A DNA stretch of 64,000 nucleotides from Eubacteriales bacterium mix99 (GTDB lineage: Bacteria; Bacillota; Clostridia; Caldicoprobacterales; DTU083). A program made the translations under genes and the position numbers. The stretch covers positions 1,830,500 to 1,894,499 of the forward strand of contig CP121690.1 of the NCBI GenBank assembly GCA_038396605.1, given 5' to 3'. Every line of letters starts with the position of its first letter. Positions within the stretch are counted from its first letter, which is position 1. Positions 34,259 through 62,203 of the stretch are shown here, one piece after another. The notes under the pieces are model-generated. The model saw only the letters and a program-made list of their open reading frames with translations, ran no database searches and was not told where the DNA came from.

Positions 34259-35674
34259 CTAAATCAGGAAGATTGCTGCAATTGTGGTTACTGCCAGACC
34301 GATTATAACCGGTTTCATATTCCGTCGAACCAGGTCAAAGGGGCTGACTCCGCAGATCGCCGCTGCCGGGATAACGGACCATGGGATCAGGGTGCCCCCG
34401 CCTACCCAGATTGCCGCCACCTGTCCAAGGGCGGTTAAAGTAGCCGATCCGCTGCCGATAGCTGTGGAAAACAGTTTTGCCACAGAGCCGGCCAGACTGA
34501 TTCCCGAGAATCCGGAACCATCCAGTCCTGTGATGGAGCCTACTATCGTGGAGGTGGCCGCCGCGACTGCTTTGTTCAGCGGAACGGCATTGGCCAGCGC
34601 GATACCGAGATCATTTACCAGGCCGCTGGATCCGGCTGGCAATACTTCTCCGAAAATATGAGGGAATGCGGCATCCCCCAGGTAGAAGAAGGCAGCAATA
34701 GGGATAACCGGTCCAAAAATCTGAAACCCAAATTTCAGTCCATCAATAAAACAGGAGGTTATTTTCTCCAGACCACTGTTTTTGTGAGAGATCATGGCGA
34801 TCAGAATCAGGATGAAAAGGGAAGTTCCTCCCACAAGGCCAGTGGCATCTCCTCCCTGCAGCTTGAACAGGAACATGGTCAGGAGGTCCGCCAGATATAA
34901 TACCGGGATCAAAACGGCGAGAATTTTTCCTGTTGTTCCGGAAAGGATGCGTTTTTTGTCTTCCTTCCCCTCGGAAGCCTTCCTGGTTTCCTCTTCTTTT
35001 GCCGGATTGGTTTCCATGGTAAGGGTACCCTTTTTCATATCGCGTTTCAGGAAACAAAAAGCGGTTATGGTGGTTACTGCGCCCATAATGATTACCAGGG
35101 GAACACTTGCGGAAAGGACATCGCCTACCGGGATTCCCGCTCCATCCGCTGTCAGCTTTGGAGCTCCCTGAATAATGAAATCACCTGACAAGGCAATGCC
35201 ATGTCCAAAAAGATTCATCGCCATGGCGGCGCCAATGGCAGGCAATTTCACCTGAAGCGCCACGGGAAGCAGAACAGCGCCCATCAGGGCTACTGCCGGG
35301 GAAGGCCAGAAGAACCAGGAGATCACCATCATCAGAATACCGATGATCCAGTAAGCCAGGGAAGGCGATCGAATCAGTTTCGTAAAGGGGCGAACCATCT
35401 CTTCATTGATTCCGGTTTCCAGCATGACCTTGCTCATGCCGGTAATTACAGAGATAATCAGAATCGTACTCAGCAATTCCGTTATTGCATAGATGAAACT
35501 GCTGAAGATGCCCATAACAGACTGGTGCAGGGATCCTGTTGCCACAAGACCAAGGACGAAAATGCCAGCCACGCATACCAAAGTGGTGTCTCTTCTCATT
35601 ATCATAACAACGATGATGAGAACAATGAACAGGAGATAAACCCAATGTAAAGAGGCTAATGCCGTATATTCCAT
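34259..35674 (-). CDS. GntP/DcuC-like membrane transporter
   Basis: 471 residues from ATG 35674 (MEYTALASLHWVYLL), behind GGAAAGGAG; the upstream open frame has no ribosome site. About twelve membrane helices in two halves separated by a charged loop near residues 220-250 (NPAKEEETRKASEGKEDK). Helix-breaking repeats such as GSITGLDGSGFSGISLAGSV and WVGGGTLIPWSVIPAAAICG resemble the anion-binding re-entrant loops of the IT superfamily (GntP, DcuC, short-chain fatty acid permeases). The substrate is likely an organic anion; I cannot be more exact. Confidence 0.75.
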   Translation of the reverse strand: MEYTALASLHWVYLLFIVLIIVVMIMRRDTTLVCVAGIFVLGLVATGSLHQSVMGIFSSFIYAITELLSTILIISVITGMSKVMLETGINEEMVRPFTKLIRSPSLAYWIIGILMMVISWFFWPSPAVALMGAVLLPVALQVKLPAIGAAMAMNLFGHGIALSGDFIIQGAPKLTADGAGIPVGDVLSASVPLVIIMGAVTTITAFCFLKRDMKKGTLTMETNPAKEEETRKASEGKEDKKRILSGTTGKILAVLIPVLYLADLLTMFLFKLQGGDATGLVGGTSLFILILIAMISHKNSGLEKITSCFIDGLKFGFQIFGPVIPIAAFFYLGDAAFPHIFGEVLPAGSSGLVNDLGIALANAVPLNKAVAAATSTIVGSITGLDGSGFSGISLAGSVAKLFSTAIGSGSATLTALGQVAAIWVGGGTLIPWSVIPAAAICGVSPFDLVRRNMKPVIIGLAVTTIAAIFLI

Positions 35675-35906
35675 ATACTTTCTCCTTTCCAGGAATGATA
35701 AGAACGATTGTTCAATAGGATATGGTATAAGATATGCCGGTCGGGTGAAGATGGTACGAAAGGTTCCTGTCAATTTTGAATCGGGTCTGTCATCCCGGAA
35801 CCGGAATGTGTCAATGATCTCCTTCTTTCTGACCCGCTGCCCTGGCGAAAAAAGTGCATTTCTATCTTTATATATGATATTCTGCGAAAAAAGTGGAATA
35901 ATAGGC

Positions 35907-35935
35907 TTGAATCCCGAATAGAATTGTGATATAGT
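35907..35935 (+). promoter_or_regulatory. rRNA promoter P1
   Basis: TTGAAT (35907-35912), 17 bases, TATAGT (35930-35935). Confidence 0.55.
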
Positions 35936-36012
35936 ATTCCTTGCACTTGATACGAGATACGAGCTTTTGAAGTGGCATCGACATAAAAGTGCAAAATATC
36001 TTAAAAAACATG

Positions 36013-36041
36013 TTGACAAAGCGGAGACGATTTGTTAATAT
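36013..36041 (+). promoter_or_regulatory. rRNA promoter P2
   Basis: Perfect TTGACA (36013-36018), 17-base spacer and TAATAT (36036-36041), about 270 bases before 16S. The leader between holds CCTTGAAAACAGAACAG, echoed by CCTTGAAAACTGCACAATGC in the spacer after 16S. Confidence 0.8.
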
Positions 36042-36310: not shown

Positions 36311-41083
<4,773 letters not shown>

Positions 41084-41120
41084 AATAGAGCATTGTGCAG
41101 TTTTCAGGGTATATCCCTTA

Positions 41121-41236
41121 TCCGGCGGTTACAGCGAAAGGGTCACACCTGTTCCCATCCCGAACACAGCAGTTAAGCCTTTCTGCGCCTATGGTACCTG
41201 GAGGGCGACCTCCCGGAAGAGCAGGTCACTGCCGGA
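41121..41236 (+). rRNA. 5S ribosomal RNA
   Basis: 116 bases; TCCGGCGGTTACAGCG at the 5' end pairs with CTGCCGGA at the 3' end. Internal CACACCTGTTCCCATCCCG and CGAACACAGCAGTTAAGC are typical. Confidence 0.96.
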
Positions 41237-41249
41237 TCTTTATATATAT

Positions 41250-41324
41250 TCCTCAGTAGCTCAATGGTAGAGCACTCGGCTGTTAACCGAGGGGTTACTG
41301 GTTCGAGCCCAGCCTGAGGAGCCA
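41250..41324 (+). tRNA. tRNA-Asn (GTT)
   Basis: 75 bases with encoded CCA. Acceptor TCCTCAG/CTGAGGA; anticodon loop CTGTTAAC gives GTT; T arm GGTTCGAGCCC. It follows 5S by 13 bases and ends the rRNA operon. Confidence 0.96.
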
Positions 41325-44890: not shown

Positions 44891-46195
44891 ATGCCAAACA
44901 AACTGCTTGTTCTTTCTGCGGACGGGTTGGTGAAAGAGGATGTGGATGCACTGCGATCCATGAAAAACTTTCGGAAGTATTTTTCCCGGGCCAGCGGCAT
45001 TGAACGGGTACGCTCCATCTATCCAACAATCACGTATCCCTGCCATACTACCATGTGTACCGGAGTCTGGCCGGAAAAGCACGGTGTCTGCGGCAATCTT
45101 CAGATGATGCCGGGAAGCAAAAAGAAGCCATGGAAATGGTTTCGAACCGATAATCTTTGGCCGGATGACATCTTTTTTGCGGCAAAGCGCAGAGGACTGA
45201 CCACCGGGGCAGTATTCTGGCCTGCGACCGGAAATCATCCTGCCATCGATTATCTGGTTGATGAGTACTGGCCTCAGGCAATAAACGATCCGCTGCCAGG
45301 GGTCTTTCGACGTTCCGGTTCATCGGAGGAGGTTCTGTGTGCCATTGAACACAGCTACCAGAATGTTCCTTTGCACAGGCACCCGGAGACCACGGAATTC
45401 ATTATGCGCTGCGCAGTGGACCTGATTGATACCTTTCAGCCGGATGTCCTTTTCCTGCATCCGGCCGATGTAGATGCTGCCCGGCATCAAAACGGAGTGT
45501 TCAACGATCGGGTGGATGTGGCGGTAGCCGCCACAGACGGATATATCGGTATGGTGATGGAGGCACTGGACCGTCATGGATTGATCCCGGAAACCAATGT
45601 GGTACTGACCAGCGATCATGGACTCATTGATGTGAAACAGATCGTTAATGTAAACGTACGGCTGGCGGAAGCGGGGCTCCTGGATGTGAGTGAAGGCGGG
45701 AATCTGATCGGATGGCGCGCCTATTGCCAGTCCGGCGGTACAAGCGCGCTCGTCTATTTGAATGAGGATGTTGGACCGGAGGGATACGATCGTACTTACT
45801 CGGTTCTGAAGGAAATGAGGGAGGATCCGATCTGCGGCATCGGGCGTGTTTTCACGGAAGAAGAGTGCCGGGCTGAACAGCATTTTGGGGGAGAATTTTC
45901 CTTTGTGTTGGAAACGGACGGCTCCACTGCATTTGGAGATGATCTTTGCGGACCGCTGATGAAACAATACGACATAACCGACTACCGATATGGCCGTGCC
46001 ACACATGGACATCTGCCGGATAAGGGACCTCAGCCGGTATTCTGGTGCATTGGCCCCGATTTTCGTGAGAACGTTATTTTGCCGGAAGGACGGCTGATTG
46101 ATCAGGCGCCCACCTATGCAAAGATACTGGGGACAGAATTGAAGGACTGCGATGGCCGTCCATTGACAGAACTCTTACGCCGGGGAATATGTTAA
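44891..46195 (+). CDS. Alkaline phosphatase superfamily phosphodiesterase
   Basis: 434 residues, no signal peptide. Nucleotide pyrophosphatase/phosphodiesterase-type metal and nucleophile motifs: LSADGL near the start, PTITYPCHTTMCTGVWPEKHG with the threonine nucleophile region, DVLFLHPADVDAARHQNG, TSDHGLIDV and RATHGHLPD. These enzymes cleave phosphodiesters or phosphonate/sulfate esters in the cytoplasm. It is followed by a DeoR regulator and a glycerol-1-phosphate dehydrogenase, which suggests a glycerophospho-type diester as substrate (inference). Confidence 0.9.
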   Translation: MPNKLLVLSADGLVKEDVDALRSMKNFRKYFSRASGIERVRSIYPTITYPCHTTMCTGVWPEKHGVCGNLQMMPGSKKKPWKWFRTDNLWPDDIFFAAKRRGLTTGAVFWPATGNHPAIDYLVDEYWPQAINDPLPGVFRRSGSSEEVLCAIEHSYQNVPLHRHPETTEFIMRCAVDLIDTFQPDVLFLHPADVDAARHQNGVFNDRVDVAVAATDGYIGMVMEALDRHGLIPETNVVLTSDHGLIDVKQIVNVNVRLAEAGLLDVSEGGNLIGWRAYCQSGGTSALVYLNEDVGPEGYDRTYSVLKEMREDPICGIGRVFTEEECRAEQHFGGEFSFVLETDGSTAFGDDLCGPLMKQYDITDYRYGRATHGHLPDKGPQPVFWCIGPDFRENVILPEGRLIDQAPTYAKILGTELKDCDGRPLTELLRRGIC

Positions 46196-46279
46196 TGAGT
46201 TACAGTCTCCGGGATTTCCTGTCGTCGCATCGGAAATGACGAAGGGATAGATATCGAAGGGAAGAAAGGAAAGTACAGT

Positions 46280-47032
46280 ATGCACGATCGAAAATCTGAG
46301 ATTATAGATTTGGTGAATCAGCGTGGTCAGGTCACGTTCAAGGAGATAAGGGATCTCTTTCCGGACCTGTCTGAAATGACCATACGACGCGATCTGGAAG
46401 CATTGGATCGGGAACATGCCCTGGTACGTGTCCACGGAGGCGCCAGGTCCATCGGTACCATTGTCGGATCGGAAGATCTGTTCAGAAATCGCGCTGTCTC
46501 CCATATGGAAGAAAAAAGTACAATAGCACAGAAAGCACTGCACTATATCATACCGGGTTACATCATATTTTTCGATTCCGGTTCCACTGTTGCGGAGCTG
46601 GCCAGAATCCTGCCGGATGAGCAAATGATTATTTTCACCGGAAATATTTCGGCTGCATTGGAGATGGCCCGTCTGAAAAAACCTGTGATCCATATTATAG
46701 GCGGGCGGCTGGACGTGCAGAGTCTGTGTGTCAGCGATAGCTGCAGTCTTGATATGCTGAATGATGTGAATATCAATTATGCTTTCTTTGGCGTAACCGG
46801 CTATTCGGAGCGACGTGGTTTCACCTGTGGCAAGGAAGATGAATACCGGCTGAAAAAGATGGTGATCGGCAAAAGCGATAAGGTCATTGTTCTGATGGAT
46901 TCCTCCAAGGCCGGCATATCCTCTGTTTACACCTATGCCATGGACGAAGACATTGATATGGTGATTTCAGATGGCAACCTATCACCCAAATTATTGGAAC
47001 GATTCGGACAAAATGGAGTTGAAGTCCTGTAA
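46280..47032 (+). CDS. DeoR family transcriptional regulator
   Basis: 250 residues. N-terminal HTH (RGQVTFKEIRDLFPDLSEMT, then IRRDLEALD) and the DeoR sensor domain with FFDSGSTVAELARIL and FFGVTGYSERRGFTCGKEDE. The sensor binds phosphorylated sugars. It sits between the phosphodiesterase and the glycerol-1-phosphate dehydrogenase and probably controls both. Confidence 0.93.
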   Translation: MHDRKSEIIDLVNQRGQVTFKEIRDLFPDLSEMTIRRDLEALDREHALVRVHGGARSIGTIVGSEDLFRNRAVSHMEEKSTIAQKALHYIIPGYIIFFDSGSTVAELARILPDEQMIIFTGNISAALEMARLKKPVIHIIGGRLDVQSLCVSDSCSLDMLNDVNINYAFFGVTGYSERRGFTCGKEDEYRLKKMVIGKSDKVIVLMDSSKAGISSVYTYAMDEDIDMVISDGNLSPKLLERFGQNGVEVL

Positions 47033-47177
47033 CCCTGCTATTTTAGCCGCTTGATATCTGGATTATGAGAGATCAGCCGGTGAACAGGGGAAAAATGAGA
47101 TGACGCGAATACGAGTATCATATGTTGGAAAATCAGTGGAAATAAAAAATCAAAACGGAAAGGGGTAAAGGAATAAG

Positions 47178-48464
47178 ATGGATTTCAACAAACTGCTTGG
47201 CAAAAAGATCGTATGCAGATGCGGCATGACGCATTATTGCCCCATCCGGCATGTTATCATTGAAAAGAATGCCATATCCAAACTGAGCGGATTATTGGAC
47301 GGATACCAAAATGTCGTTCTGGTCGCTGACGAGAATACATATGCGGTTTGTGGCCACAGGACGGAAGCACAGATTGGGGCAAGACTGGAAAACAAGGTCG
47401 TCTATAGCGGGGAAGGATTCCTGATTCCGGATGAGTCCTCCATCACCGCTCTCAATACAGCGGTAAGCGGGAAAACAGACCTGATGGTTGGTATCGGTTC
47501 CGGTGTCATCAACGACCTGTGCAAATATATTGGATCACAGCGCGGACTTCCTTACTATATTGTGGCAACCGCCCCCTCTATGGACGGTTATGCATCCGTA
47601 GGCGCGGCGCTGGTGATTGGCGGGATGAAGGTAAACCGTCCTACCGGTACAGCGGAAGCGATCATTGCGGACACGGAGGTGCTTCGCAATGCGCCGCTGG
47701 AGATGATACAATCCGGTTACGGGGATATCATCGGCAAATATTCATGCCTGAATGACTGGAAATTTGCCAGACTGGTCCGGGGGGAGGCCTTCTGTCCATG
47801 GGTTCATGATTTTATCCAGGAAACAGTTCAGCATGTGGCCGGACTGGGCAAAAAGCTTCTGAAGCGGGACGGAGAGAGCATAAAAACGTTGATGGAAGCT
47901 TTGGTATGCACAGGCATCGCAATGAGTTATATCGGGAACTCCCGTCCGGCATCCGGAAGTGAGCATCACCTGTCGCACTTTTTCGAGATCACGGGAATCC
48001 TTGACAAAAAACCTTATTTTCTTCATGGGAGAAACGTTGCCTATTCCACTGTGATCACCCAACGTTTACGGGAAGAGCTTTTAGCCCTTGATAATCCAGT
48101 CTGTCGGTCCTTTGACCGGGACAAATGGGAAAGGGAAATTCACAGACTGTATACCACCGCAGCCAGGAATGTCATTGACCTGCAGAGAAAGGCAGGATGG
48201 TACGAATTGGACTGGCAGTCCTTGTATACCGATAAATGGGCGGAGATACAAGAGCTGTTCGCCGGGATGCCCTCCTCGGTATCCCTGGAACACCTCCTGA
48301 ATACGGTGGGACTGTCCATGGATGAGTTTATCCGGGAGTATGGCGAAGCGAAAATCCGCGATGCAGCCGTTTATGCCAAGGATCTGAAAAACAGATATAC
48401 TGTTCTCTGGCTATACTGGTCCCTGATCGGGGAGGACGGCAGGCTTTCATCTGATTCCGGGTGA
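47178..48464 (+). CDS. egsA: sn-glycerol-1-phosphate dehydrogenase (AraM/EgsA-like)
   Basis: 428 residues of the iron-alcohol-dehydrogenase fold. NAD-binding GIGSGVINDLCKYIG and substrate/metal segments TAPSMDGYASVGAALV, SGSEHHLSHFFE and HGRNVAYST are those of bacterial AraM. The enzyme interconverts dihydroxyacetone phosphate and sn-glycerol-1-phosphate with NAD(P)H. Bacterial versions serve rare glycerol-1-phosphate ethers or catabolism of related sugar-alcohol phosphates. AAAGGGGTAAAGGA precedes the ATG. Confidence 0.88.
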   Translation: MDFNKLLGKKIVCRCGMTHYCPIRHVIIEKNAISKLSGLLDGYQNVVLVADENTYAVCGHRTEAQIGARLENKVVYSGEGFLIPDESSITALNTAVSGKTDLMVGIGSGVINDLCKYIGSQRGLPYYIVATAPSMDGYASVGAALVIGGMKVNRPTGTAEAIIADTEVLRNAPLEMIQSGYGDIIGKYSCLNDWKFARLVRGEAFCPWVHDFIQETVQHVAGLGKKLLKRDGESIKTLMEALVCTGIAMSYIGNSRPASGSEHHLSHFFEITGILDKKPYFLHGRNVAYSTVITQRLREELLALDNPVCRSFDRDKWEREIHRLYTTAARNVIDLQRKAGWYELDWQSLYTDKWAEIQELFAGMPSSVSLEHLLNTVGLSMDEFIREYGEAKIRDAAVYAKDLKNRYTVLWLYWSLIGEDGRLSSDSG

Positions 48465-51064: not shown

Positions 51065-53140
51065 ATGTTCCTGCTGAAAAATGAATTTCTGGAAGCGAAG
51101 TTTAATCAAAAGGGTGCGCTCATCTATCTAAAGGACACCAAAAATAATACAGACAACGTAATCTCCTGCCCTGCGGAAAACAGTTTCAAACTTGTCTTTC
51201 AGAAAGGAGATAATTGGGAGAATACGGTATTAGCAGGAGAACAATCCTTTCAGACAAGGCAAAGTGGCAGCAGACTGGAGTTTTCTGCTGATCGGGTATC
51301 TGCCGGAGGCCATGTATTTGAAATCAGCATAAAACTGATTGTTACGCTCAGGGAAGAGGATCTGTTATTCGATGCGGAGATAATCAATTGCGAAGAAGCT
51401 CTTGTCACGGATTTTGAATATCCGAATATCGGTGCGATAAAGTCCTTGTCCGGCGGCCAACCGGATTTGTTATGGCCGAATCAAAGCGGAGAAAAATGTA
51501 TCCGTATCGGTGAATATCTGTCAAATAAGAAAGACAGCAGGGAAGCACATGCAAACGTTCTGGCATTGAGATACCCGGGCGCCCGTTCCATGGCAGGCAG
51601 CATGCAGTGGATGGCTCTTGTGGAGAAGGATCAGACGTTATATTTTGCCGGGCATGACGCGGAGTTCTATACATCTGAGCTGCTTGTTCAGGGCAGCCGG
51701 AAAGACAGGGGAGCCGTCACCCTTACCATGGAAAAGATGCCATTCATAAAAAAAGGAGAGGTATGGGATGCTCCGCTTACCCTGATAAAGCTGTATACCG
51801 GATCCTGGCATCATGGTGCACAGGAATACCGGGCCTGGGCACAGACATGGCGTCCGACTCATGAGAAACCCCGTTGGGTCAAGGACATGATGGGATACTT
51901 TCTGGTGATCAACAAACAGCAATATGGCAGCGAAATGTGGCATTACAGGGAACTGCCGGAACTTTATGAGCTTGCCGTTGCCCATGGCTGTGACACTTTG
52001 GGGCTTTTTGGATGGTATGACAGCGGACATGACAATCAATATCCGGATCTTGAAGTGAGTGAGACTCTGGGCGGGGGAAAACGTCTGAAGGAAAACATCA
52101 AATCCGTTCAGAAAGCCGGCGGACATGTCACGCTTTATCAGCAGGGGCATCTGATGGATCCGACTGCGGACTACTATAAAAACGGCGGCTGGCAGTATGA
52201 ATCCAGAAGCCGGTGGAATACGCCATATCTGGAGGAATACAGCAAGTCTCATGAAAGCTTTTTTCAGATGCATCATTCCAACAAAGTTTTTGCGATATCC
52301 TGTCCTTCCTGTCCGGAATGGCAGGAACTGATGGAGGAAAAAACAGAGTTTGCGGCGGGTTTTGGCCCGGATGGAGTGTTGTTTGACCAGATCGGAGGGA
52401 TGTTCGCCTATCCCTGCTTCAATGAAAAGCACCCGCATGCCAAAGGGAAGCCTTCCCTTTCCATGTCCCAAGGAAGAATCGGGCTTCTGAAACGTATTCA
52501 GAAGCGTACGAAGGAACTCAACAAAGAGTTTGCTTTTTTTACCGAACACATCACAGATGTATATTCCGCATATGTTGATTGCCTTCACGGGATGAACCTT
52601 ACTCCATCGGGGGAGGGGAGCCGAATGCATACAGAGAGCGATAAACCGGGCTTTATTAATTATCCTGAGCTTTTCCGCTACTGCTTCCCGGATGTGATCA
52701 TGACCATACGCAATCCCAATCCTTTTATTCTTCCCCGTGCTGCAAATTTTGCCTTTACTTTTGGTCTTCGTTACGAAATGGAGCTGCGATTCTGGAAGGA
52801 TAAGGATGATATTCTGGCAGATACCTACGCCGAGTATCGTGAGTACGCAGGAAAAGTTACCGATCTTCGCAAAAAATACTGGGATGTATTGGGATATGGT
52901 GAGTTTATGGATGAAACTCCGCTTGTCAATCCGAACCCTGCTGTTCTCGCAAAAGCATTTGTTTGCGGCGATAAACTTGCCCTGACCATGTGGAACGACA
53001 GTAACGGATGCGCGGACCTTAAAATTGAAGTGAAAGGATATCGGCTTATTGAGGTATCCACGATTGAGGATACATGGGAAAGTGTGCCTGCCAGCTTGTT
53101 GCCGCAGCAGATTGCAATAGCTCTTTATGAAAAAATGTGA
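51065..53140 (+). CDS. DUF6259-type putative glycosidase, paralogue 1
   Basis: 691 residues from ATG 51065, eight bases after AAGGGGG. No signal peptide, so cytoplasmic. Residues 1-270 form a beta-sandwich ([20 protein letters not shown]), followed by a TIM barrel in which [12 protein letters not shown] and [19 protein letters not shown] hold the likely acidic catalytic pair, then a small C-terminal beta domain ending [13 protein letters not shown]. The layout recalls clan GH-D/GH31-like alpha-glycosidases. Paralogue 2 at 56324 shares about half its residues by eye. The substrate is unknown. Confidence 0.72.
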
Positions 53141-53169: not shown

Positions 53170-56100
53170 ATGAAACGGTTTCACAGTATCTTAACTGTTA
53201 TCGTAATGGCATCCATGTTATTGGCATTGTTTCCTGCAGCTGCATTTGCGCAGGAGGAGATACTATCGGGAGTTACCGAAAATCCAAAAAATCATTATGT
53301 CTATGCAAACGGGAATCCGATTGTGATTAAAGAAACGGAAGAAACGATTGAAGGCAATGTTGTTCAGAATACCTATATTTATGATGTACATGGTGAGACA
53401 AAACTTTTTGATAAACCCCTTGAAGAAGTCCCGTATGTGTTTGGAGGTGCTCAAACTGCCACTGTGGCCAATACAAAAGTGGTAATGGAAAGCGGGAGAA
53501 TCGGAACCCGCACCAGGACTGGAAAAGGATATTTGTATGGCGGTGGAGGAGGAGATGTGGAAGGGACCGCGGAGGTAATTGTCCGGGGAGGGTTTGTTGG
53601 ATCCGTTTATGGCTGTGGAGCTGGTACGACGGGAAGGGTAAAGATAGAATACAACAATACTGTCTCCGATCTTCAGGCATTGGTGGTCGGCGGACAAGGG
53701 AAGATCAGAGGCAATGTTGACATTGTGCTGAACGATCCCAATCTGACCACCCTTTGCGGTGGTGGGAACGGTACATCAGATACTTATGTGGGCGGAAATG
53801 TGAATATCACAATCCGCGGAGGCAGTATCGACAATTTATACGGCGGCTGTGTCCACGGATATGTAAACGGGATGGCTCATATCACCATAGAAGGCAGCAC
53901 GAAAGTCAACAAGGCGTTTCATCCAATGAGAAAGATTTACAATGATCTGGTATATGGAGGAGCTTATGTGTATGTGCCGGAAAATTTTGATACGGACCGG
54001 ATCAAGACGGTTTATGAAGATGGGAAGCCAAACAATGAAATCCGTATTTTCAAAAATGGGACGCAGGTTTATGGGCCTTGCCCGGCTACAGTGGACAGCA
54101 ACGGGAATGTCTATGCAAATGGCACTCCTGTGACAATCAAGGCAGGAAAAGCGGACGGAAAAACCTATTTGTATGATCAAATGGGAGTCAACAAGCTTTT
54201 GGAGGATCCGATTGATCACGGTACCGTCTACGGCGGCAGTGTTGCGGATGATGTTGACCAGACCAGTATCGTCATGGAAAGCGGTGTGGTCTCCGCTGTC
54301 TACGGAGGTGGTTGGAATGGCAATGTGACCGGCAATTCTTCTATCGTTTTGAATGGCGGCGTGGCAGATCATGTTTTTGGAAGCAGTCGGAACGGAACGG
54401 TAAACGGCACGGCTTACATAAAAGTGTCCGAAGGGATGAAAATAGCGGAACGAATTGCTTCCGACAGTGGGAAAGGCAGGTCCCGCGCTTCGGTTCTCTG
54501 GGTTGCCCAAAGTTTTGATATGAGCAAACTCCAGCCGGGTGAAAATACCCGGATTTTCAAGGGTAGTTTCGAAGTGGTGGATCCGGAGATTGCAATACCG
54601 AATACCGTTACAGTCCGGGGGAGTTCTGTGTTCGCAAACGGAATTCCGATTGTTATCCGAAAGGACAGGATAAACGGCAGGACATTTGTTTATGATGCAT
54701 CGGGAAGGAAAAGGCTTCTGACCGCGGATGTCAATGGCAAGGAAATTTATGGCGGAAGTTATCAGGGCATTGTGAACCGTACCAGCGTGACAATGGAAAG
54801 CGGTACGGTATCGCGCATTTACGGCGGCGGCTATCAGGGGGGCGTCTCGGATACTGCAGGGATTACCATTACCGGCGGTGATGTTACGGAAGTGATTTAC
54901 GGAGGATCCTTTGACGGAGATGTAGGCAGCACCTCCATATATGTAAGCGGTCCGTATGTGGCGAAAGGGGTTAATGCGGGCAGCAGAAATGGCTGTGTAC
55001 GGGGCGATACAAAAGTGGTACTGGTGGACAGTGTTGCAAAAGGGCTGTATGCCGGTACCGGCGGAGACGGACGGTTTGGGTGTCCCGGTTCGGATGTCAT
55101 GGGAAATGCTTCCTATACTCTGGTTGGCGGTATGGCGGAATCCATATACGGAGGCTGTAAAACCGGTGTGATTAAGGGAACATCCACCATAACGCTGGAA
55201 GGCCAGATTGTCGTGAAAAAGGTTCTGGATGCTCAGGGAAAAGGCGGTGTATCTGGCGGAGCTACTGTTACAATACCTGAGAATTTCATTTATATGGATA
55301 AGATCGAACAGGGAAAAGGGATCGATATACAACTGACTGCTCCGGTGCCGAAGAATACTGTCCCCGGGATCGGAAAACGTACGGAGGAGGTGCTTTCCAC
55401 CGAAGGGGAAGAAGGAAAACTGGTATTCCGTTTTATCGATCTTCCTCCTGCGGAAGGACAAATGATGGGCAGATCCGGAGAGGCGATATTCATCCACTTG
55501 CCCAATGGCGAAACCATGCTGGTGGATGCAGGAGAGACATTCACGGCTGAACATCTTGTTGATGTGCTGAAACGAATGCATATATCCAGGATTGATCATC
55601 TGGTCGCATCCCACTACCACTCGGATCATATCGGCGGCATGACCCGTATACTCGATGAATTTGATGTTGATACCTTGTATAAGCCAGGCTTTGATGTGAA
55701 GATTGACAAAGACTATTATACGGATTTAAAAGCGAGAATTGACGATCCCAACCGGCCCTTTATTGTAAAGGATTTATGGCGCGGCGATCAGCTGGAAATT
55801 GGCGGCCTGCACATTGAGGTACTTCATCCGCAGAACAGTGAAAGCATCAAAGACGTTATGAGTGGGAATGCCTCCACCGAGGATCACAACAACAATTCCA
55901 TAGTGATGAAAATGACTTTTGGGGAGAATACAGCTTTGCTGACCGGTGACATCTATATGAGTGCAGAATTGGAACTGCTGAAAGAGTTCGGAGCGGAAAG
56001 TCTGAAAGTGGATTTGCTTAAGGTGCCGCATCACGGAGATACGACGTCCAGCGGTCCGGAGTTTGTGGCTGCAGTCCGGCCTGAAATCGCAGTAATGGAT

Positions 56101-56343
56101 CATTTCAGCGATACACTGATTGTCAATAACCGATACAAGGCAATCGGGGCCGATACATATGTTACGGGGAAAGACGGGATTGTAAAAGTTTCTTTTGACG
56201 GCAGGAAACATTCCGCCGAAGTACTGACGGAATACTTTGAAAAACCTGTTATTGTGAAGGATGATGAGGATTCCCCGGAAAATGCCAGGGGAGGACAGGA
56301 TCGAAAAGGAAGGGAGACTGCTTGTGTATATCCTGCAGAATGA
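53170..56343 (+). CDS. Secreted repeat protein with C-terminal metallo-beta-lactamase domain
   Basis: 1057 residues from ATG 53170, after AAAGGAAGGGATCAGG. Residues 1-28 are a signal peptide ending AAAFA. Three modules follow, beginning near residues 44, 314 and 487 (VYANGNPIVI, VYANGTPVTI, VFANGIPIVI). Each runs YxYD, then VYGGS, a VxMESG strand and glycine-rich turns like VYGGGWNGNVTG that suggest a beta-solenoid. From about residue 750 comes a ComEC-like metallo-beta-lactamase domain with metal motif HYHSDH at 815-820, then NNNSIVMKM, LLTGDIY and KVPHHGD. There is no sortase or S-layer anchor. It overlaps the next gene by 20 bases. Confidence 0.82.
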   Translation: MKRFHSILTVIVMASMLLALFPAAAFAQEEILSGVTENPKNHYVYANGNPIVIKETEETIEGNVVQNTYIYDVHGETKLFDKPLEEVPYVFGGAQTATVANTKVVMESGRIGTRTRTGKGYLYGGGGGDVEGTAEVIVRGGFVGSVYGCGAGTTGRVKIEYNNTVSDLQALVVGGQGKIRGNVDIVLNDPNLTTLCGGGNGTSDTYVGGNVNITIRGGSIDNLYGGCVHGYVNGMAHITIEGSTKVNKAFHPMRKIYNDLVYGGAYVYVPENFDTDRIKTVYEDGKPNNEIRIFKNGTQVYGPCPATVDSNGNVYANGTPVTIKAGKADGKTYLYDQMGVNKLLEDPIDHGTVYGGSVADDVDQTSIVMESGVVSAVYGGGWNGNVTGNSSIVLNGGVADHVFGSSRNGTVNGTAYIKVSEGMKIAERIASDSGKGRSRASVLWVAQSFDMSKLQPGENTRIFKGSFEVVDPEIAIPNTVTVRGSSVFANGIPIVIRKDRINGRTFVYDASGRKRLLTADVNGKEIYGGSYQGIVNRTSVTMESGTVSRIYGGGYQGGVSDTAGITITGGDVTEVIYGGSFDGDVGSTSIYVSGPYVAKGVNAGSRNGCVRGDTKVVLVDSVAKGLYAGTGGDGRFGCPGSDVMGNASYTLVGGMAESIYGGCKTGVIKGTSTITLEGQIVVKKVLDAQGKGGVSGGATVTIPENFIYMDKIEQGKGIDIQLTAPVPKNTVPGIGKRTEEVLSTEGEEGKLVFRFIDLPPAEGQMMGRSGEAIFIHLPNGETMLVDAGETFTAEHLVDVLKRMHISRIDHLVASHYHSDHIGGMTRILDEFDVDTLYKPGFDVKIDKDYYTDLKARIDDPNRPFIVKDLWRGDQLEIGGLHIEVLHPQNSESIKDVMSGNASTEDHNNNSIVMKMTFGENTALLTGDIYMSAELELLKEFGAESLKVDLLKVPHHGDTTSSGPEFVAAVRPEIAVMDHFSDTLIVNNRYKAIGADTYVTGKDGIVKVSFDGRKHSAEVLTEYFEKPVIVKDDEDSPENARGGQDRKGRETACVYPAE

Positions 56344-58402
56344 GTACCTGAAGGTAAAGTTTGATGAAAGAGCGAGGCTTGTCTATTTAAGAAATAACAA
56401 AGGCGGCAGGGGAAATATCCTTGCATCCCCTGCCGAATACGGTTTCAAAATGGTATTCCGTAGGGGCCAGGATTGGGAGAAAACAGCTTTTTTAAAGGAA
56501 CGTTCCTTTACTGTGATACAAGATGGAAATCGGGTTGAATTTACGGCTGACCGACTGCAAACCCGGGATGGTATGGCGGATATCGGGTTGAAGCTCATTG
56601 TGCAGTTAAAAGATGAGGATCTGACATTTGATGCGGAGATCAACAGCAAGGAAGACGGGCCGATTACCGACTTTGAATATCCGGTCATAGGGGAAATCCA
56701 GTCCCTTGCAGGCGGAAAGCCGGCTTTGCTTTGGCCAAATCAAAGCGGTGAGAAATATAACAATATCGGTAAATACCTTGCCGATAAAAAGCCGACCAGA
56801 ATGCCGTCCAGCCAGTCCTTATCCATTACCTGGCCGGGCCCGGCAAGCATGCAGTGGATGGCACTGGTCGACAAAAGGGAAGTCCTTTATTTTGCCGGTC
56901 ATGATGCCGATTTTCATGCCACAGAGCTTCGCGCTGCCGGGGGCGGCGAAAATCCTGGCGCCGTTACACTGGTAATGAATAAAATGCCATTTGTCAGGAA
57001 AGGAGAACGATGGACAGGTCCGACGTCGCTGCTGAAACTGTATACCGGCACCTGGCATCATGGGGCGCAGGATTACATCGATTGGTCGAAAACCTGGCGG
57101 CCGGTTCGTGAGAAACCGCAGTGGGTAAAGAATATGACAGGATATTTCATTGTGATCTGCAAGCAGCAGTACGGCGCGGAACTATGGCGATATCAGAAAC
57201 TGCCAAAACTTTATGAGTTGGCTCTTGCCCATGGCTGTGACACACTGGGGGTCTACGGGTGGCAGGAAGGCGGCCATGACAACCGGTATCCGGAGACAAG
57301 GGTGAGTGAATCCCTGGGCGGCGCTCAGGTTCTCCGGGATAACATCAAAACAGTACAGGACAGGGGAGGACATGTTACTTTATATGTACAGGGCCGTTTG
57401 ATGGATATTGCCACCGATTTCTATCAGAACGGAGGCTTTCGGTTTGAGTGCAAAAACCGATGGGGAATGCCCTGTTACGAAGAGTACAACAAGGCACAGA
57501 ACAGTTCATTTTTAAAGGATTATTCCCATAAAGTCTTTTCCGTTGCCTGCCCATCCTGTCCGGAATGGCGGGAATTGATGAAAGAAAAGGCGGATCTGAT
57601 TGCTTCCTTTGGCCCGGATGGCATTTTATATGACCAAATCGGAGGAATGCCGCCCCGTATCTGTTTTGATAAGAGTCATCCTCATGAGAAAGGGAAGGAA
57701 TCCCTGTCCGCAACCAAAGGAACGACGATGCTCCTGGGCGGACTTCAGGCACATATGAAAGAAATAGGTAAGAACTTTGCACTTTTTTCCGATCATATTA
57801 CCGATGTGTATTCTTCCTATGTGGATTGTCTGCACGGGATCGATTCCTATCCCGGGAGGGAAGGCAGCAGAATGGAGACCGGGATGAATCCTGAAAAGCC
57901 AGAGAAGGTGTTTTTCCCGGAGTTGTTCCGGTATTGCTTTCCGGACGTGCCGATCACTGTCTGCAATCCGTATCCTTATATCACAAAGCGCGCAGCCAAT
58001 TACGCCATTACATTCGGCTTTCTAAACGAAGTGGAGGTTCGGTATCAGGCAGACCGGGAGGATATTCTGGCAGATGCCTGGCCTGCATGTCGGGAATATG
58101 TAAAGAAAGTAACGGAACTCCGCAAAAAATATGAGGATATTCTGGGTTACGGCTGGTTTCGGGATGAATTGCCGATTCCAGGCAAAAATCCTGCGATCCT
58201 GGCAAAAGCTTTTGTCAGGGAAAACAAACTTGCAGCTGTCCTGTGGAATGATACGGATTGGGAGAGTAAAACGAATGTAGAGGTCCCGGGATATCGTCTC
58301 ACAGAGGTTTCCACTGTGAACGGGACTCTGGAGAAGCTTCCTGAAACATTGCAGCCGCAGCAGATTGCAGTGGCTCTCTATGAAAAAGAGCGACAGGGAT
58401 AG
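56324..58402 (+). CDS. DUF6259-type putative glycosidase, paralogue 2
   Basis: 692 residues. The start is GTG 56324 (VYILQNEYLKVKFD), which aligns with paralogue 1 and has GGAAGGGAG seven bases upstream, inside the end of the preceding gene. Same architecture: beta-sandwich, TIM barrel with GPDGILYDQIGG and FSDHITDVYSSYVDCLHG, and C-terminal domain ending LQPQQIAVALYEK. Here the second acidic motif is SDH rather than TEH, a possible change at a catalytic position. It ends 5 bases from the convergent RpiR gene. Confidence 0.72.
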   Translation: MYILQNEYLKVKFDERARLVYLRNNKGGRGNILASPAEYGFKMVFRRGQDWEKTAFLKERSFTVIQDGNRVEFTADRLQTRDGMADIGLKLIVQLKDEDLTFDAEINSKEDGPITDFEYPVIGEIQSLAGGKPALLWPNQSGEKYNNIGKYLADKKPTRMPSSQSLSITWPGPASMQWMALVDKREVLYFAGHDADFHATELRAAGGGENPGAVTLVMNKMPFVRKGERWTGPTSLLKLYTGTWHHGAQDYIDWSKTWRPVREKPQWVKNMTGYFIVICKQQYGAELWRYQKLPKLYELALAHGCDTLGVYGWQEGGHDNRYPETRVSESLGGAQVLRDNIKTVQDRGGHVTLYVQGRLMDIATDFYQNGGFRFECKNRWGMPCYEEYNKAQNSSFLKDYSHKVFSVACPSCPEWRELMKEKADLIASFGPDGILYDQIGGMPPRICFDKSHPHEKGKESLSATKGTTMLLGGLQAHMKEIGKNFALFSDHITDVYSSYVDCLHGIDSYPGREGSRMETGMNPEKPEKVFFPELFRYCFPDVPITVCNPYPYITKRAANYAITFGFLNEVEVRYQADREDILADAWPACREYVKKVTELRKKYEDILGYGWFRDELPIPGKNPAILAKAFVRENKLAAVLWNDTDWESKTNVEVPGYRLTEVSTVNGTLEKLPETLQPQQIAVALYEKERQG

Positions 58403-59317: not shown

Positions 59318-60253
59318 TTATGAGAACTGCATGGCTCTGGCTGCTCCAGGCAACGATGCATGGTCGATATCAGTTATTGCTTCAATAACCTTCAGCGTCG
59401 GGATCTCTTCCAGTATGCCGCGCAGGGCGGGAAGAAACAAATCAGCGGATTTGCAGATGCCTCCGCCCAGCAACAGGCATTCAAATCTGTTATCCCTTAT
59501 TATATCATATAATATCTCCGCCAGACAGATCCCCATACTCTCGAAGGCCTGGATGGCGTCCGTCTGTCCGGAACGTGCCAGGCTGGCTATGTCTATGACA
59601 TCCATTTCTGAATCGCCTGAAAATGCCCCATTGCAGCGACCACTGCCCTGCCTCAGTTCCATGTAATGTGAGATCAAAGCATGTCTGGACACGTAGTCTT
59701 CCGCTGCCTTTCCCCGGTATGGCATGGCATAGATGCTGATGCCGGGTCCGCCCTGATCATTTTCGTAAATCTTCCCGTCAAACATGGAAGCAAACCCCAG
59801 TCCTGTACCAAGGACTACGCCGGCTATTCGCTGATAGCGGGAGGAAAGGCCGTTTTGTGTGGCGCCCAAAAGAAAAGCGGTGGAATCATGAAGGAAATAA
59901 ACCGGGACCTTCCCGACCGCCTGTTCCAGCCAGGGCCGCATGGAAATACCGTATATGGACTGATATTTATGCCGCATCCGGCTGATTCCGGCGGGGTAAT
60001 CGAAAGGACCCGGAATGCATATACTGATTCCCTCAAGTCTCATTTTATTTTTTTGGGAAAGAGATCGGCCCCGGGAAGCCACTTCGATGTATGCGGCCTT
60101 TATTTCTTCCGCATTTCCTCCGGAATCGACGGGGATTTTGAAGAAACTGCCTTCCACCAGTCTGGCAGATTCTCCGTTTTCCCGAATGAGAGCAGCTTTC
60201 AGGAAGGTTCCTCCTGCATCGATGGCCAGAATACATTTGCTTTTATTATTCAT
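59318..60253 (-). CDS. ROK-family sugar kinase
   Basis: 311 residues. The ATP site is formed by LAIDAGGTFLKAALI and GVVLGTGLGFASMFDGKIY; FLHDSTAFLLGA holds the catalytic aspartate. The usual CxCGxxGC zinc motif of ROK proteins is absent (the region reads GGPGISIYAMPYRGKAAEDY), which is seen in some kinases. It overlaps the isomerase stop by 8 bases. The predicted role is phosphorylation of the sugar released by the glycosidases. Confidence 0.85.
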   Translation of the reverse strand: MNNKSKCILAIDAGGTFLKAALIRENGESARLVEGSFFKIPVDSGGNAEEIKAAYIEVASRGRSLSQKNKMRLEGISICIPGPFDYPAGISRMRHKYQSIYGISMRPWLEQAVGKVPVYFLHDSTAFLLGATQNGLSSRYQRIAGVVLGTGLGFASMFDGKIYENDQGGPGISIYAMPYRGKAAEDYVSRHALISHYMELRQGSGRCNGAFSGDSEMDVIDIASLARSGQTDAIQAFESMGICLAEILYDIIRDNRFECLLLGGGICKSADLFLPALRGILEEIPTLKVIEAITDIDHASLPGAARAMQFS

Positions 60254-62093
60254 TTTCGTAGCCGTCTTTCAGCAATGTCTTGTGCATGGTAACAACTCCT
60301 GCCTTCCGGTTGAGTACCTCATACGGTCCAAATCCTGCCGGGATAATAACCGTATCCAGATAATGCTGCTCAAAAAAGCGGTTTGGATCTGTCAGGGAGC
60401 GAATCAGACAGGTTTCCCCGTCTACCAGAACAAGAACATGAAACCGATCCGTTGTTTCGTCCTCGTACTTTTGATCAAATATCACATTGCGCAGGGAGAA
60501 GTATAACAGATCATGCTCTCCTGTGATAATCTCCCGATATCCGGTTCCTTCCCGAACGGTGCGTGGATTCTGAATGAGATTGGTTGTTACCCAATCCTCC
60601 CGGTAATCCCGGCGCAATACTTTATCAGCATGGCGGAGATGAATCGGACGAAGATTTCCGTCCAGATCCTTACGCAGATAATCGTACATCTTATATGTAT
60701 AGGAGCCGATGGTCAGGCTGCCGATTTCCAGTATCACCTGGTTGCGGCCGGAAGCATGAACGGTGCCGGCAGGAAGCAGAAACTGCATTCCGGGTCGGGA
60801 AGGAACGGAATGGATATAATCGTCATGTTGGAATCCCACTCCGGACTTTTCCGCTTTTTCCGCTTTTGCCAGGAATTCTTCCACATCCGCATCCTGCTTG
60901 AAGCCGCAGTATGTCTTAGCCTGTTGCCCTGCAGTCACGATATAGTAACTTTCGTCCTGGCGGCCAAATTCCCTGTTGTTCCGACGAACATATTCCTCAT
61001 CCGGATGAACCTGGATGGACATATTTCCGCTGGAATGAAACGTATCGTCATAGTTAAAGCGAATTGGGAAATATCCATTGAATTTTTTGGCTGCTTTTTC
61101 CCCCATTAGTTTTGTTCCCACTGTCTGCACAAAAGAATAAAAGGGGAACTCCAGCTCCATCTTTTCCAGGTCCGCCACAATAGAGACTTCCATTGGAATC
61201 AGATCAAATACCCAGGCACAGTTTTTCATTTCTTCCGGCAAATTGCGAATGCGCTTTACATAGAATCCGCCCCATACTCCTTCCAGATAGACAGGCCTGC
61301 AGCGAAGAGGATAGGTGATCATCGTTTCAAATAAAGCCTTCAGGGTTGATACGGGAATGAGACGGAGATTTTCCGGATGGTCTCCTGGCAGGTAATAATC
61401 AATCTCATTGTTTTGAATCAGATATCCCCTCAGTTCTGCAGCTGCGATGAAATCCACATAATAACTGCGCCGCAGCATTTCGGACGGAGATTTGCGTACC
61501 GGTTCTCCCAGATTTCCGCAGACACCGCTGCGAATATTCAAAATGGTGCGTTTTTGCGTCATATCGATGTAAAACTTCAGGTCATAGAAGGGGCGCAGGG
61601 CATCTATCAGGGAACCGTTTCCCCATACAATAAGAACATCTGCTTTTGTATTCCGGAATTCTTTGATTCCTTCTTTCATTTCTGCTATTTTCTTACTCTC
61701 CATCAGGCCCTCATACCCCTCGTGATAAAGGGAGCCATACAGCAGAACCGGATCAATCTCTCTGTCTTCCGGAAGATAGGGTAACAACTTTTGATGAAGC
61801 GCATTGCTGTCAAGGTACAGATTCGATGTGAACAGAGTTCGGACCGTCCAACCTTTTTGGGCGCATTCCATGGAAATCATTGCTGCAAATTGCTCCAAAG
61901 GTGCGCTGATGTAACCATCGATCCCAATGATGCAGGAGGATTGATTGTCTGTTCTATTCCGGATCCCGGAAAGGATTTCTTTCATGGATTCCTGCGAATC
62001 GTCGGTTATGGCCTTGCGAATTTGGGGATCAACGGTAATATGATTAACAGCGGTCGGATCGTCATATGGATATGGTTTGAACATAAAACTCAT
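60246..62093 (-). CDS. Class I mannose-6-phosphate isomerase-like protein with extra N-terminal domain
   Basis: 615 residues from ATG 62093, eight bases after TGGAGG; ordinary type I isomerases have 300-400. Residues about 55-230 resemble a uridine-kinase-like fold (SCIIGIDGYISAPLEQFAAM), but the P-loop glycine-lysine motif is lost. Residues 270-615 carry the cupin isomerase part with the metal motif MSIQVHPDEEYV and the later FLLPAGTVHASGRNQVILEI. It likely interconverts a ketose and aldose phosphate, maybe with the N-terminal domain as a sensor. First gene of the isomerase-kinase-RpiR group. Confidence 0.8.
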   Translation of the reverse strand: MSFMFKPYPYDDPTAVNHITVDPQIRKAITDDSQESMKEILSGIRNRTDNQSSCIIGIDGYISAPLEQFAAMISMECAQKGWTVRTLFTSNLYLDSNALHQKLLPYLPEDREIDPVLLYGSLYHEGYEGLMESKKIAEMKEGIKEFRNTKADVLIVWGNGSLIDALRPFYDLKFYIDMTQKRTILNIRSGVCGNLGEPVRKSPSEMLRRSYYVDFIAAAELRGYLIQNNEIDYYLPGDHPENLRLIPVSTLKALFETMITYPLRCRPVYLEGVWGGFYVKRIRNLPEEMKNCAWVFDLIPMEVSIVADLEKMELEFPFYSFVQTVGTKLMGEKAAKKFNGYFPIRFNYDDTFHSSGNMSIQVHPDEEYVRRNNREFGRQDESYYIVTAGQQAKTYCGFKQDADVEEFLAKAEKAEKSGVGFQHDDYIHSVPSRPGMQFLLPAGTVHASGRNQVILEIGSLTIGSYTYKMYDYLRKDLDGNLRPIHLRHADKVLRRDYREDWVTTNLIQNPRTVREGTGYREIITGEHDLLYFSLRNVIFDQKYEDETTDRFHVLVLVDGETCLIRSLTDPNRFFEQHYLDTVIIPAGFGPYEVLNRKAGVVTMHKTLLKDGYENE

Positions 62094-62203
62094 GTCAGAT
62101 ACCTCCAGAAAGTCACATATTTTTATACCGGATACGATCAGAAGAACGATTGCGAATGGCAGCGCAAACCGTTTTTCCTTTCTGATCGATATCGTCATTC
62201 TTT

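Follow-up and report, generated by a model that had tools for sequence, protein, structure and literature searches.

What does a metallo-beta-lactamase (MBL) domain of the type found in the competence protein ComEC do at the end of a secreted repeat protein? The question is raised by a gene in a 64,000-nucleotide stretch of Eubacteriales bacterium mix99 (contig CP121690.1, positions 1,830,500 to 1,894,499 of the forward strand; hereafter the window), whose product, P0001, carries such a domain behind three modules of a predicted beta-solenoid. Model and alignment show an MBL of ComEC/Pce fold with a two-metal site, which by its sequence is not a ComEC. We favour the reading, at a probability of about 40%, that P0001 acts outside the cell as a phosphodiesterase on phosphate-bearing glycans and that its solenoid holds it on this substrate. 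The gene and its parts are the following.

53170..56343, + strand: whole gene of the solenoid-MBL protein P0001, 1057 amino acids, predicted to be secreted
53170..53253, + strand: putative signal peptide, residues 1-28, with an AFA-Q cleavage-like end, recognised in the sequence
53290..54069, + strand: module 1, residues 41-300, delimited by self-alignment; its predicted local distance difference test (pLDDT) values, mostly 55-80, make it the least certain part of P0001
54100..54585, + strand: module 2 (short), residues 311-472, delimited by self-alignment and the AlphaFold2 model
54619..55335, + strand: module 3, residues 484-722, modelled as a beta-solenoid; self-alignment, AlphaFold2 and structural matches
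55432..56280, + strand: MBL domain, residues 755-1037 as searched (fold 746-1024), Pfam PF00753 at E 1.1e-13
55612..55629, + strand: motif II, HYHSDH, residues 815-820
55945..55950, + strand: motif IV, G926 and D927
56029..56040, + strand: motif V, H954, H955 and G956, with D957 at the Ser728 position of ComEC

The reading frame opens at GTG 53137 and its stop ends at 56343. The likelier start is ATG 53170, preceded by a good ribosome site (aaggaagggatcagg-ATG), and with this start the coordinates and residue numbering given in the preliminary description are correct. The gene is single-copy in its own genome. Hydrophobicity over 19-residue windows peaks at 2.37 at residue 7 and reaches at most 0.95 beyond residue 40; P0001 has no hydrophobic segment past the signal peptide and a Pfam search found no channel domain in it. 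From this sequence we infer export by a Sec signal.

The AlphaFold2 model of the MBL domain is confident (pLDDT mostly 87-98 over residues 771-1020, with dips) and bears out the ComEC-like fold proposed earlier. The best match by sequence (E 5.9e-18, 28% identity) and by fold (Z score 31.9) is 9ic4, the C-terminal domain of Moorella ComEC/Rec2, which shares the metal ligands including the Asn of motif III. The metal motif at 815-820, the later GD (926-927) and the HHG (954-956) are all present, as had been reported. The active site, said before to look catalytically competent, is intact by its full ligand set: H815, D819, H820, N907, D927, H954 and H955 are conserved in 39/39 other ComEC-type MBLs, and H817 in 37 of them. 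The same fold is found in Pce/CbpE (2bib, 1wra), a teichoic acid phosphorylcholine esterase (Z 26.5, 2.8 Å over 259 residues), which is likewise secreted and has HxHxDH, a two-metal site, an Asp after the motif V histidines and a long repeat arm. Pce differs in having its MBL at the opposite end, an arm made of choline-binding repeats instead of a YANG/YGG solenoid, and 21% identity; no Pfam family of choline-binding repeats was found in P0001. The P0001 domain mixes a Pce-like His in motif II with a ComEC-like Asn in motif III. A published comparison sets ComEC apart from Pce by a motif II Asp together with the motif III Asn (PMC8579336), but motif II does not discriminate here, because the same His/Asn pair occurs in most of the class members compared, including 14 of the 16 ComEC rows. 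Compared with ComEC 9ic4, P0001 lacks the channel and OB domain as well as the NxYGHP-type loop, has His for Asp at position 2 of motif II and Asp for Ser728, and falls on another branch of the tree.

Three observations lead us to conclude from sequence that P0001 is not a ComEC: a split in the tree, an absent loop and a separate ComEC in the genome. A first tree of 40 rows unites P0001 with L032, L033 and L034 in one clade (support 99/95). In the second, of 42 rows (six relatives added, four earlier rows omitted), this clade gains L182, again at 99/95, with L034 and L182 on long branches, and ComEC domains separate from the rest by a 100/98 split, whose ComEC side holds 13/13 ComEC-length rows and one stand-alone MBL (L161). 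The C-terminal loop is covered by 22 rows, the other 20 being too short to score; an [HQ]P element of this loop is absent in all five clade rows among them and present in all 17 others. The genome encodes a separate full ComEC and another stand-alone MBL. The four clade-mates, exported stand-alone ComEC-type MBLs of the same class, share the absent loop and are, unlike P0001, short lipoproteins or stand-alone proteins devoid of a solenoid; carbohydrate or glycerol neighbourhoods lie beside three of them. The preliminary description had seen a ComEC domain relocated from its competence channel, a view that is not supported: the nearest relatives are exported stand-alone MBLs and the ComEC domains occupy the other branch. 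It is hardly credible, for similar reasons, that P0001 is a split competence component, a detached ComEC end domain joined to repeats and still serving DNA uptake. ComEC_Rec2 is indeed the top NCBIfam match (E 6.6e-27), but P0001 scores 93.9 bits against the curated cut-off of 190.05 of TIGR00361, which models whole ComEC and could therefore hardly be satisfied by a single domain; the missing membrane channel, the full ComEC elsewhere in the genome and the placement in the tree also oppose this idea.

The secreted location is not exceptional for the fold either, contrary to what had been supposed. Besides Pce, haloarchaeal lamin-tail, Monoglobus SLH and Deinococcus excalibur proteins have the same kind of MBL on extracellular-type multi-domain proteins, with other accessory domains, an arrangement mentioned in the literature (PMC3929857), and the fusion of a secreted ComEC-type MBL to other modules is already known in kind. 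ComEC-type MBL domains often carry the annotation of a competence protein, which, as P0001, its clade and their neighbours show, can mislead; a separate branch of exported MBLs exists, which bears a distinctive sequence mark and probably serves to break down polymers.

Phosphodiester cleavage is the natural first guess for the activity, because Pce, the nearest characterised secreted relative, strips phosphorylcholine from teichoic acids (PMC4929436) and the ComEC domain is credited with general phosphodiesterase activity (PMC8579336). Of the earlier label nuclease/phosphodiesterase, the nuclease half finds no direct support: the S728 position is Asp and the neighbours are of carbohydrate or glycerol-phosphate type. 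The equivalent of S728, Asp in P0001, is Ser in 36/39 other MBLs and Lys in L182; PMC12455585 describes the 9ic4 domain as a Mn-dependent nuclease whose activity drops about 3-fold when Ser728 is changed to Ala. P0001 could still be an extracellular nuclease, anchored by its solenoid on cell or matrix and degrading DNA of its surroundings to gain nutrients or turn over biofilm. We consider this unlikely: the ComEC domain 9ic4 is the best sequence and fold match, all metal ligands are retained and net charge lies within the ComEC range, but the MBL branches with exported non-ComEC MBLs, carries Asp for Ser728 and has sugar and glycerol-phosphate genes as neighbours, and the Pfam search found no DNA-binding domain in P0001. 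Net charge per 100 residues is -6.8 to -8.2 in the clade and -12.4 to -2.1 among ComEC domains (40 rows). The acidity of the MBL relative to the ComEC domain of its own genome had been considered as a sign on DNA binding, an argument dropped after the 40-row comparison because the clade values lie inside the ComEC range. Quite unlikely, too, is that the bond hydrolysed on a decorated glycan is no phosphodiester but a sulfate ester, a lactone or an ester. Proteins of MBL fold that have activities of this kind do match, as the arylsulfatase 8gyg at E 1.2e-7, and the neighbourhood is glycan-like, but the Z score of 17.5 with 8gyg stands well behind those with ComEC and Pce.

The amino-terminal arm supplies the second part of the favoured phosphodiesterase reading. 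The model of whole P0001 has a predicted template modelling score (pTM) of 0.51, with pLDDT mostly 70-90 in modules 2 and 3, while module 3 alone, modelled with an alignment that comprised modules 1 and 2 and a pair of outside relatives, gives pLDDT 82.1, pTM 0.85 and strand throughout. The solenoid anticipated in the preliminary description is thus found in the predicted structures, and module 3 is predicted to be a regular all-beta solenoid. Foldseek returned no solved structure for module 3 at E 0.001. VIA-align places first the beta-helical antifreeze protein 3p4g (Z 12.5, 2.9 Å, 178 residues), ahead of a phage fibre, tapirin, Cthe_2159, Ag43 and other solenoids. Tapirins and Cthe_2159 (6n2b, 4wa0, 4phb; Z 10.5-10.7 with module 3) are beta-helical surface proteins of Bacillota that bind plant polysaccharide; they have no detectable sequence relation to the module and the Z scores are too low to establish kinship.

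The three modules are homologous far beyond chance. Pairwise local alignments score 169, 239 and 220, whereas 500 shuffles of each pair average 40-53 and peak at 71-88 (z 19-25), and modules 1 and 2 are each 34-35% identical to module 3. Each module proceeds from a YANG/FANG box (residues 45, 315 and 488) through a TxxYD segment and a MESG box (106, 369 and 542) to YGGG/YGGS-like units, spaced by 24-26 residues where directly consecutive, with YGGS at 354, 527 and 577. The shared strings listed earlier are nevertheless less uniform than claimed, since module 3 has VFANG, and FVYD for YxYD, and module 1 has VFGGA in place of YGGS. At the DNA level the copies have diverged to short matches only, and the repeat is therefore old.

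At E 1 no Pfam family matches the solenoid repeat, and sequence comparison finds no relative of it among solved structures. Weak relatives of the module occur in 12/391 genomes of the class, including the genome itself, and the module alignment run over 84,980 genomes recovered two weak repeat proteins, from Methanimicrococcus blatticola and a Parabacteroides bin. Six of the 11 other class loci were inspected and encode exported or large surface-type proteins; no MBL is visible in these six, nor in the Methanimicrococcus and Parabacteroides repeat open reading frames (ORFs). The combination of a YANG/FANG box with YGGG/GG-strand repeats recurs at L008, L009, L010, L011, L012, L014, L035:9374-11851 and L036:9881-12379, with the YANG box kept in L009, L012, L035 and L036 and FANG in L010. 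Its carriers are Clostridia, the archaeon M. blatticola and the Parabacteroides bin, in exported or surface-type proteins. It may be a surface module that gut anaerobes share, and the repeat amounts to a domain family for which Pfam has no model. These MBL-free surface-type proteins with related YANG/YGG repeats are what would favour taking P0001 for a binding protein or adhesin with a structural or vestigial MBL; we find this improbable, as the ligand set is complete and invariant across the family.

A pattern scan of the 84,980 genomes, an approach of limited reach, confirmed no full solenoid-MBL fusion elsewhere; the solenoid was seen in the own genome only, both among 30 genomes of the order and in a phylum sample of 398. 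Plasmids and phages yielded no fusion and viral contigs no match to the module alignment. Within the samples searched, this solenoid and a ComEC-type MBL are combined in the own genome only. Two long frames with an MBL, of 1182 and 903 amino acids, had been considered as further fusions and translate to ordinary ComEC. The ComEC of 1182 amino acids at L135:79-3627 (genome G084) has long Ala/Gly-rich linkers flanking its channel on both sides.

Neighbouring genes give hints on the substrate. Those used below are:

51065..53140, + strand: DUF6259 gene 1, upstream, cytoplasmic putative glycosidase, likely start ATG 51065
56324..58402, + strand: DUF6259 gene 2, likely start GTG 56324
44891..46195, + strand: PF01663 phosphodiesterase-family gene, putatively linked to P0001
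47178..48464, + strand: glycerol-1-phosphate-dehydrogenase-like gene (Fe-ADH_2), putatively linked to P0001

P0001 is flanked by two DUF6259 paralogues of 56% identity, with a 29-nucleotide gap after gene 1 and a 20-nucleotide overlap with gene 2 (taking GTG 56324 as its start), an operon-like order. Gene 1 scores 83.3 bits with PF19773 (cut-off 28.7) and its translation has no evident signal peptide. DUF6259 matches glycosidases weakly (3wnk E 0.0025, GHL6 1.8e-6, GH66 0.0079), and a literature search on it found no paper. The ribosome-site stretches ahead of P0001 and of DUF6259 gene 2 are near-copies, gaaaggaaggga and gaaaaggaaggga, and look as if a gene had been inserted between tandem DUF6259 copies. 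To the right of the operon, an RpiR regulator on the reverse strand is followed by a ROK gene and one devoid of Pfam match; beyond these come permeases of sugar type, a solute-binding protein, a GH16-type gene and a two-component system. On the left, positions 44891-48464 hold the PF01663 gene, a DeoR regulator and the dehydrogenase-like gene in a row, followed by a helix-turn-helix gene and a reverse-strand PHP gene.

The surroundings of the clade-mates are as follows. In G029, of the same order, one strand carries an N-acetylneuraminate lyase (302 bits, cut-off 281), BNR_2, DUF6259, a solute-binding protein, two permeases and the MBL lipoprotein, permeases and lipoprotein signal being judged by eye. 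G271 has an AraC regulator, a probable sensor (by eye), the MBL, a glycerol-1-phosphate-dehydrogenase-like gene and PfkB. G798 has Ugp-type permeases and binding protein (UgpA, UgpE and UgpB models below cut-off), the MBL, a glycerol kinase (519, cut-off 498), PF01663 and pyruvate dehydrogenase. G043, with M81-type and LarA-type genes (by eye), falls outside the glycan/glycerol theme. The PF01663 protein of the window is 43% identical over its length to its G798 relative, 1.6 kb downstream of the clade MBL, and the dehydrogenase is 41% identical to its G271 relative, the gene immediately following the clade MBL. With such small counts, and with a window cluster that does not adjoin the operon, this link is a lead, not proof.

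Taken together, the favoured mechanism would run as follows. The Sec signal would export P0001, and the three predicted solenoid modules would form an elongated arm holding it on polysaccharide or the cell surface. The C-terminal MBL would cleave phosphodiester links in phosphate-bearing glycans, for instance glycerol-phosphate or teichoic-type polymers. To judge from the neighbourhoods, the freed pieces may be imported by ATP-binding cassette transporters of sugar or glycerol-phosphate type and, once in the cell, degraded by the operon's two DUF6259 proteins, putative glycosidases, and by glycerol-phosphate enzymes. More tentatively, and with considerable doubt, the loop-less clade of five could represent unrecognised extracellular phosphodiesterases that open phosphate-linked surface polysaccharides (teichoic/glycerol-phosphate type) for uptake by anaerobic Clostridia, mounted here on a new glycan-binding solenoid. 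If true, these anaerobes would have a route to the use of phosphate-bearing glycans; the solenoid-mounted enzyme would mirror, on a phosphate basis, the common design of glycosidase plus binding module, and the clade would offer a five-gene test set.

Several observations weigh against the glycan phosphodiesterase. Net charge fails to separate the clade from ComEC domains. The likeness of the solenoid to tapirins and Cthe_2159 may reflect a shared arrangement only; the Z scores are tied with those of unrelated solenoids, and Foldseek gives E 0.19. A regulator and the reverse-strand PHP gene part the PF01663/dehydrogenase cluster from the operon, and the PF01663 gene is present at 94% identity in same-genus G010, in which no DUF6259 match and no MBL match at E 1e-35 were found. 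The G010 contig stops short of the syntenic site. A stand-alone MBL lies near DUF6259 in 2/46 DUF6259 genomes, the own included, many contigs being short. DUF6259 linkage, once regarded as a strong argument, is weak at this count, and a third MBL/DUF6259 case involves a ComEC-length ORF. Co-occurrence with PF01663, in 3/5 clade carriers (G000, G043, G798) and 1/10 others (G010), concerns too few genomes to weigh.

Elsewhere in the window, two reverse-strand ORFs, of 650 amino acids (60246-62198) and 586 amino acids (34259-36019), have no Pfam match at E 0.01; the former has a weak manA-like NCBIfam match. Positions 36311-41324 hold a complete rRNA operon with 16S, 23S, 5S and tRNA-Asn.

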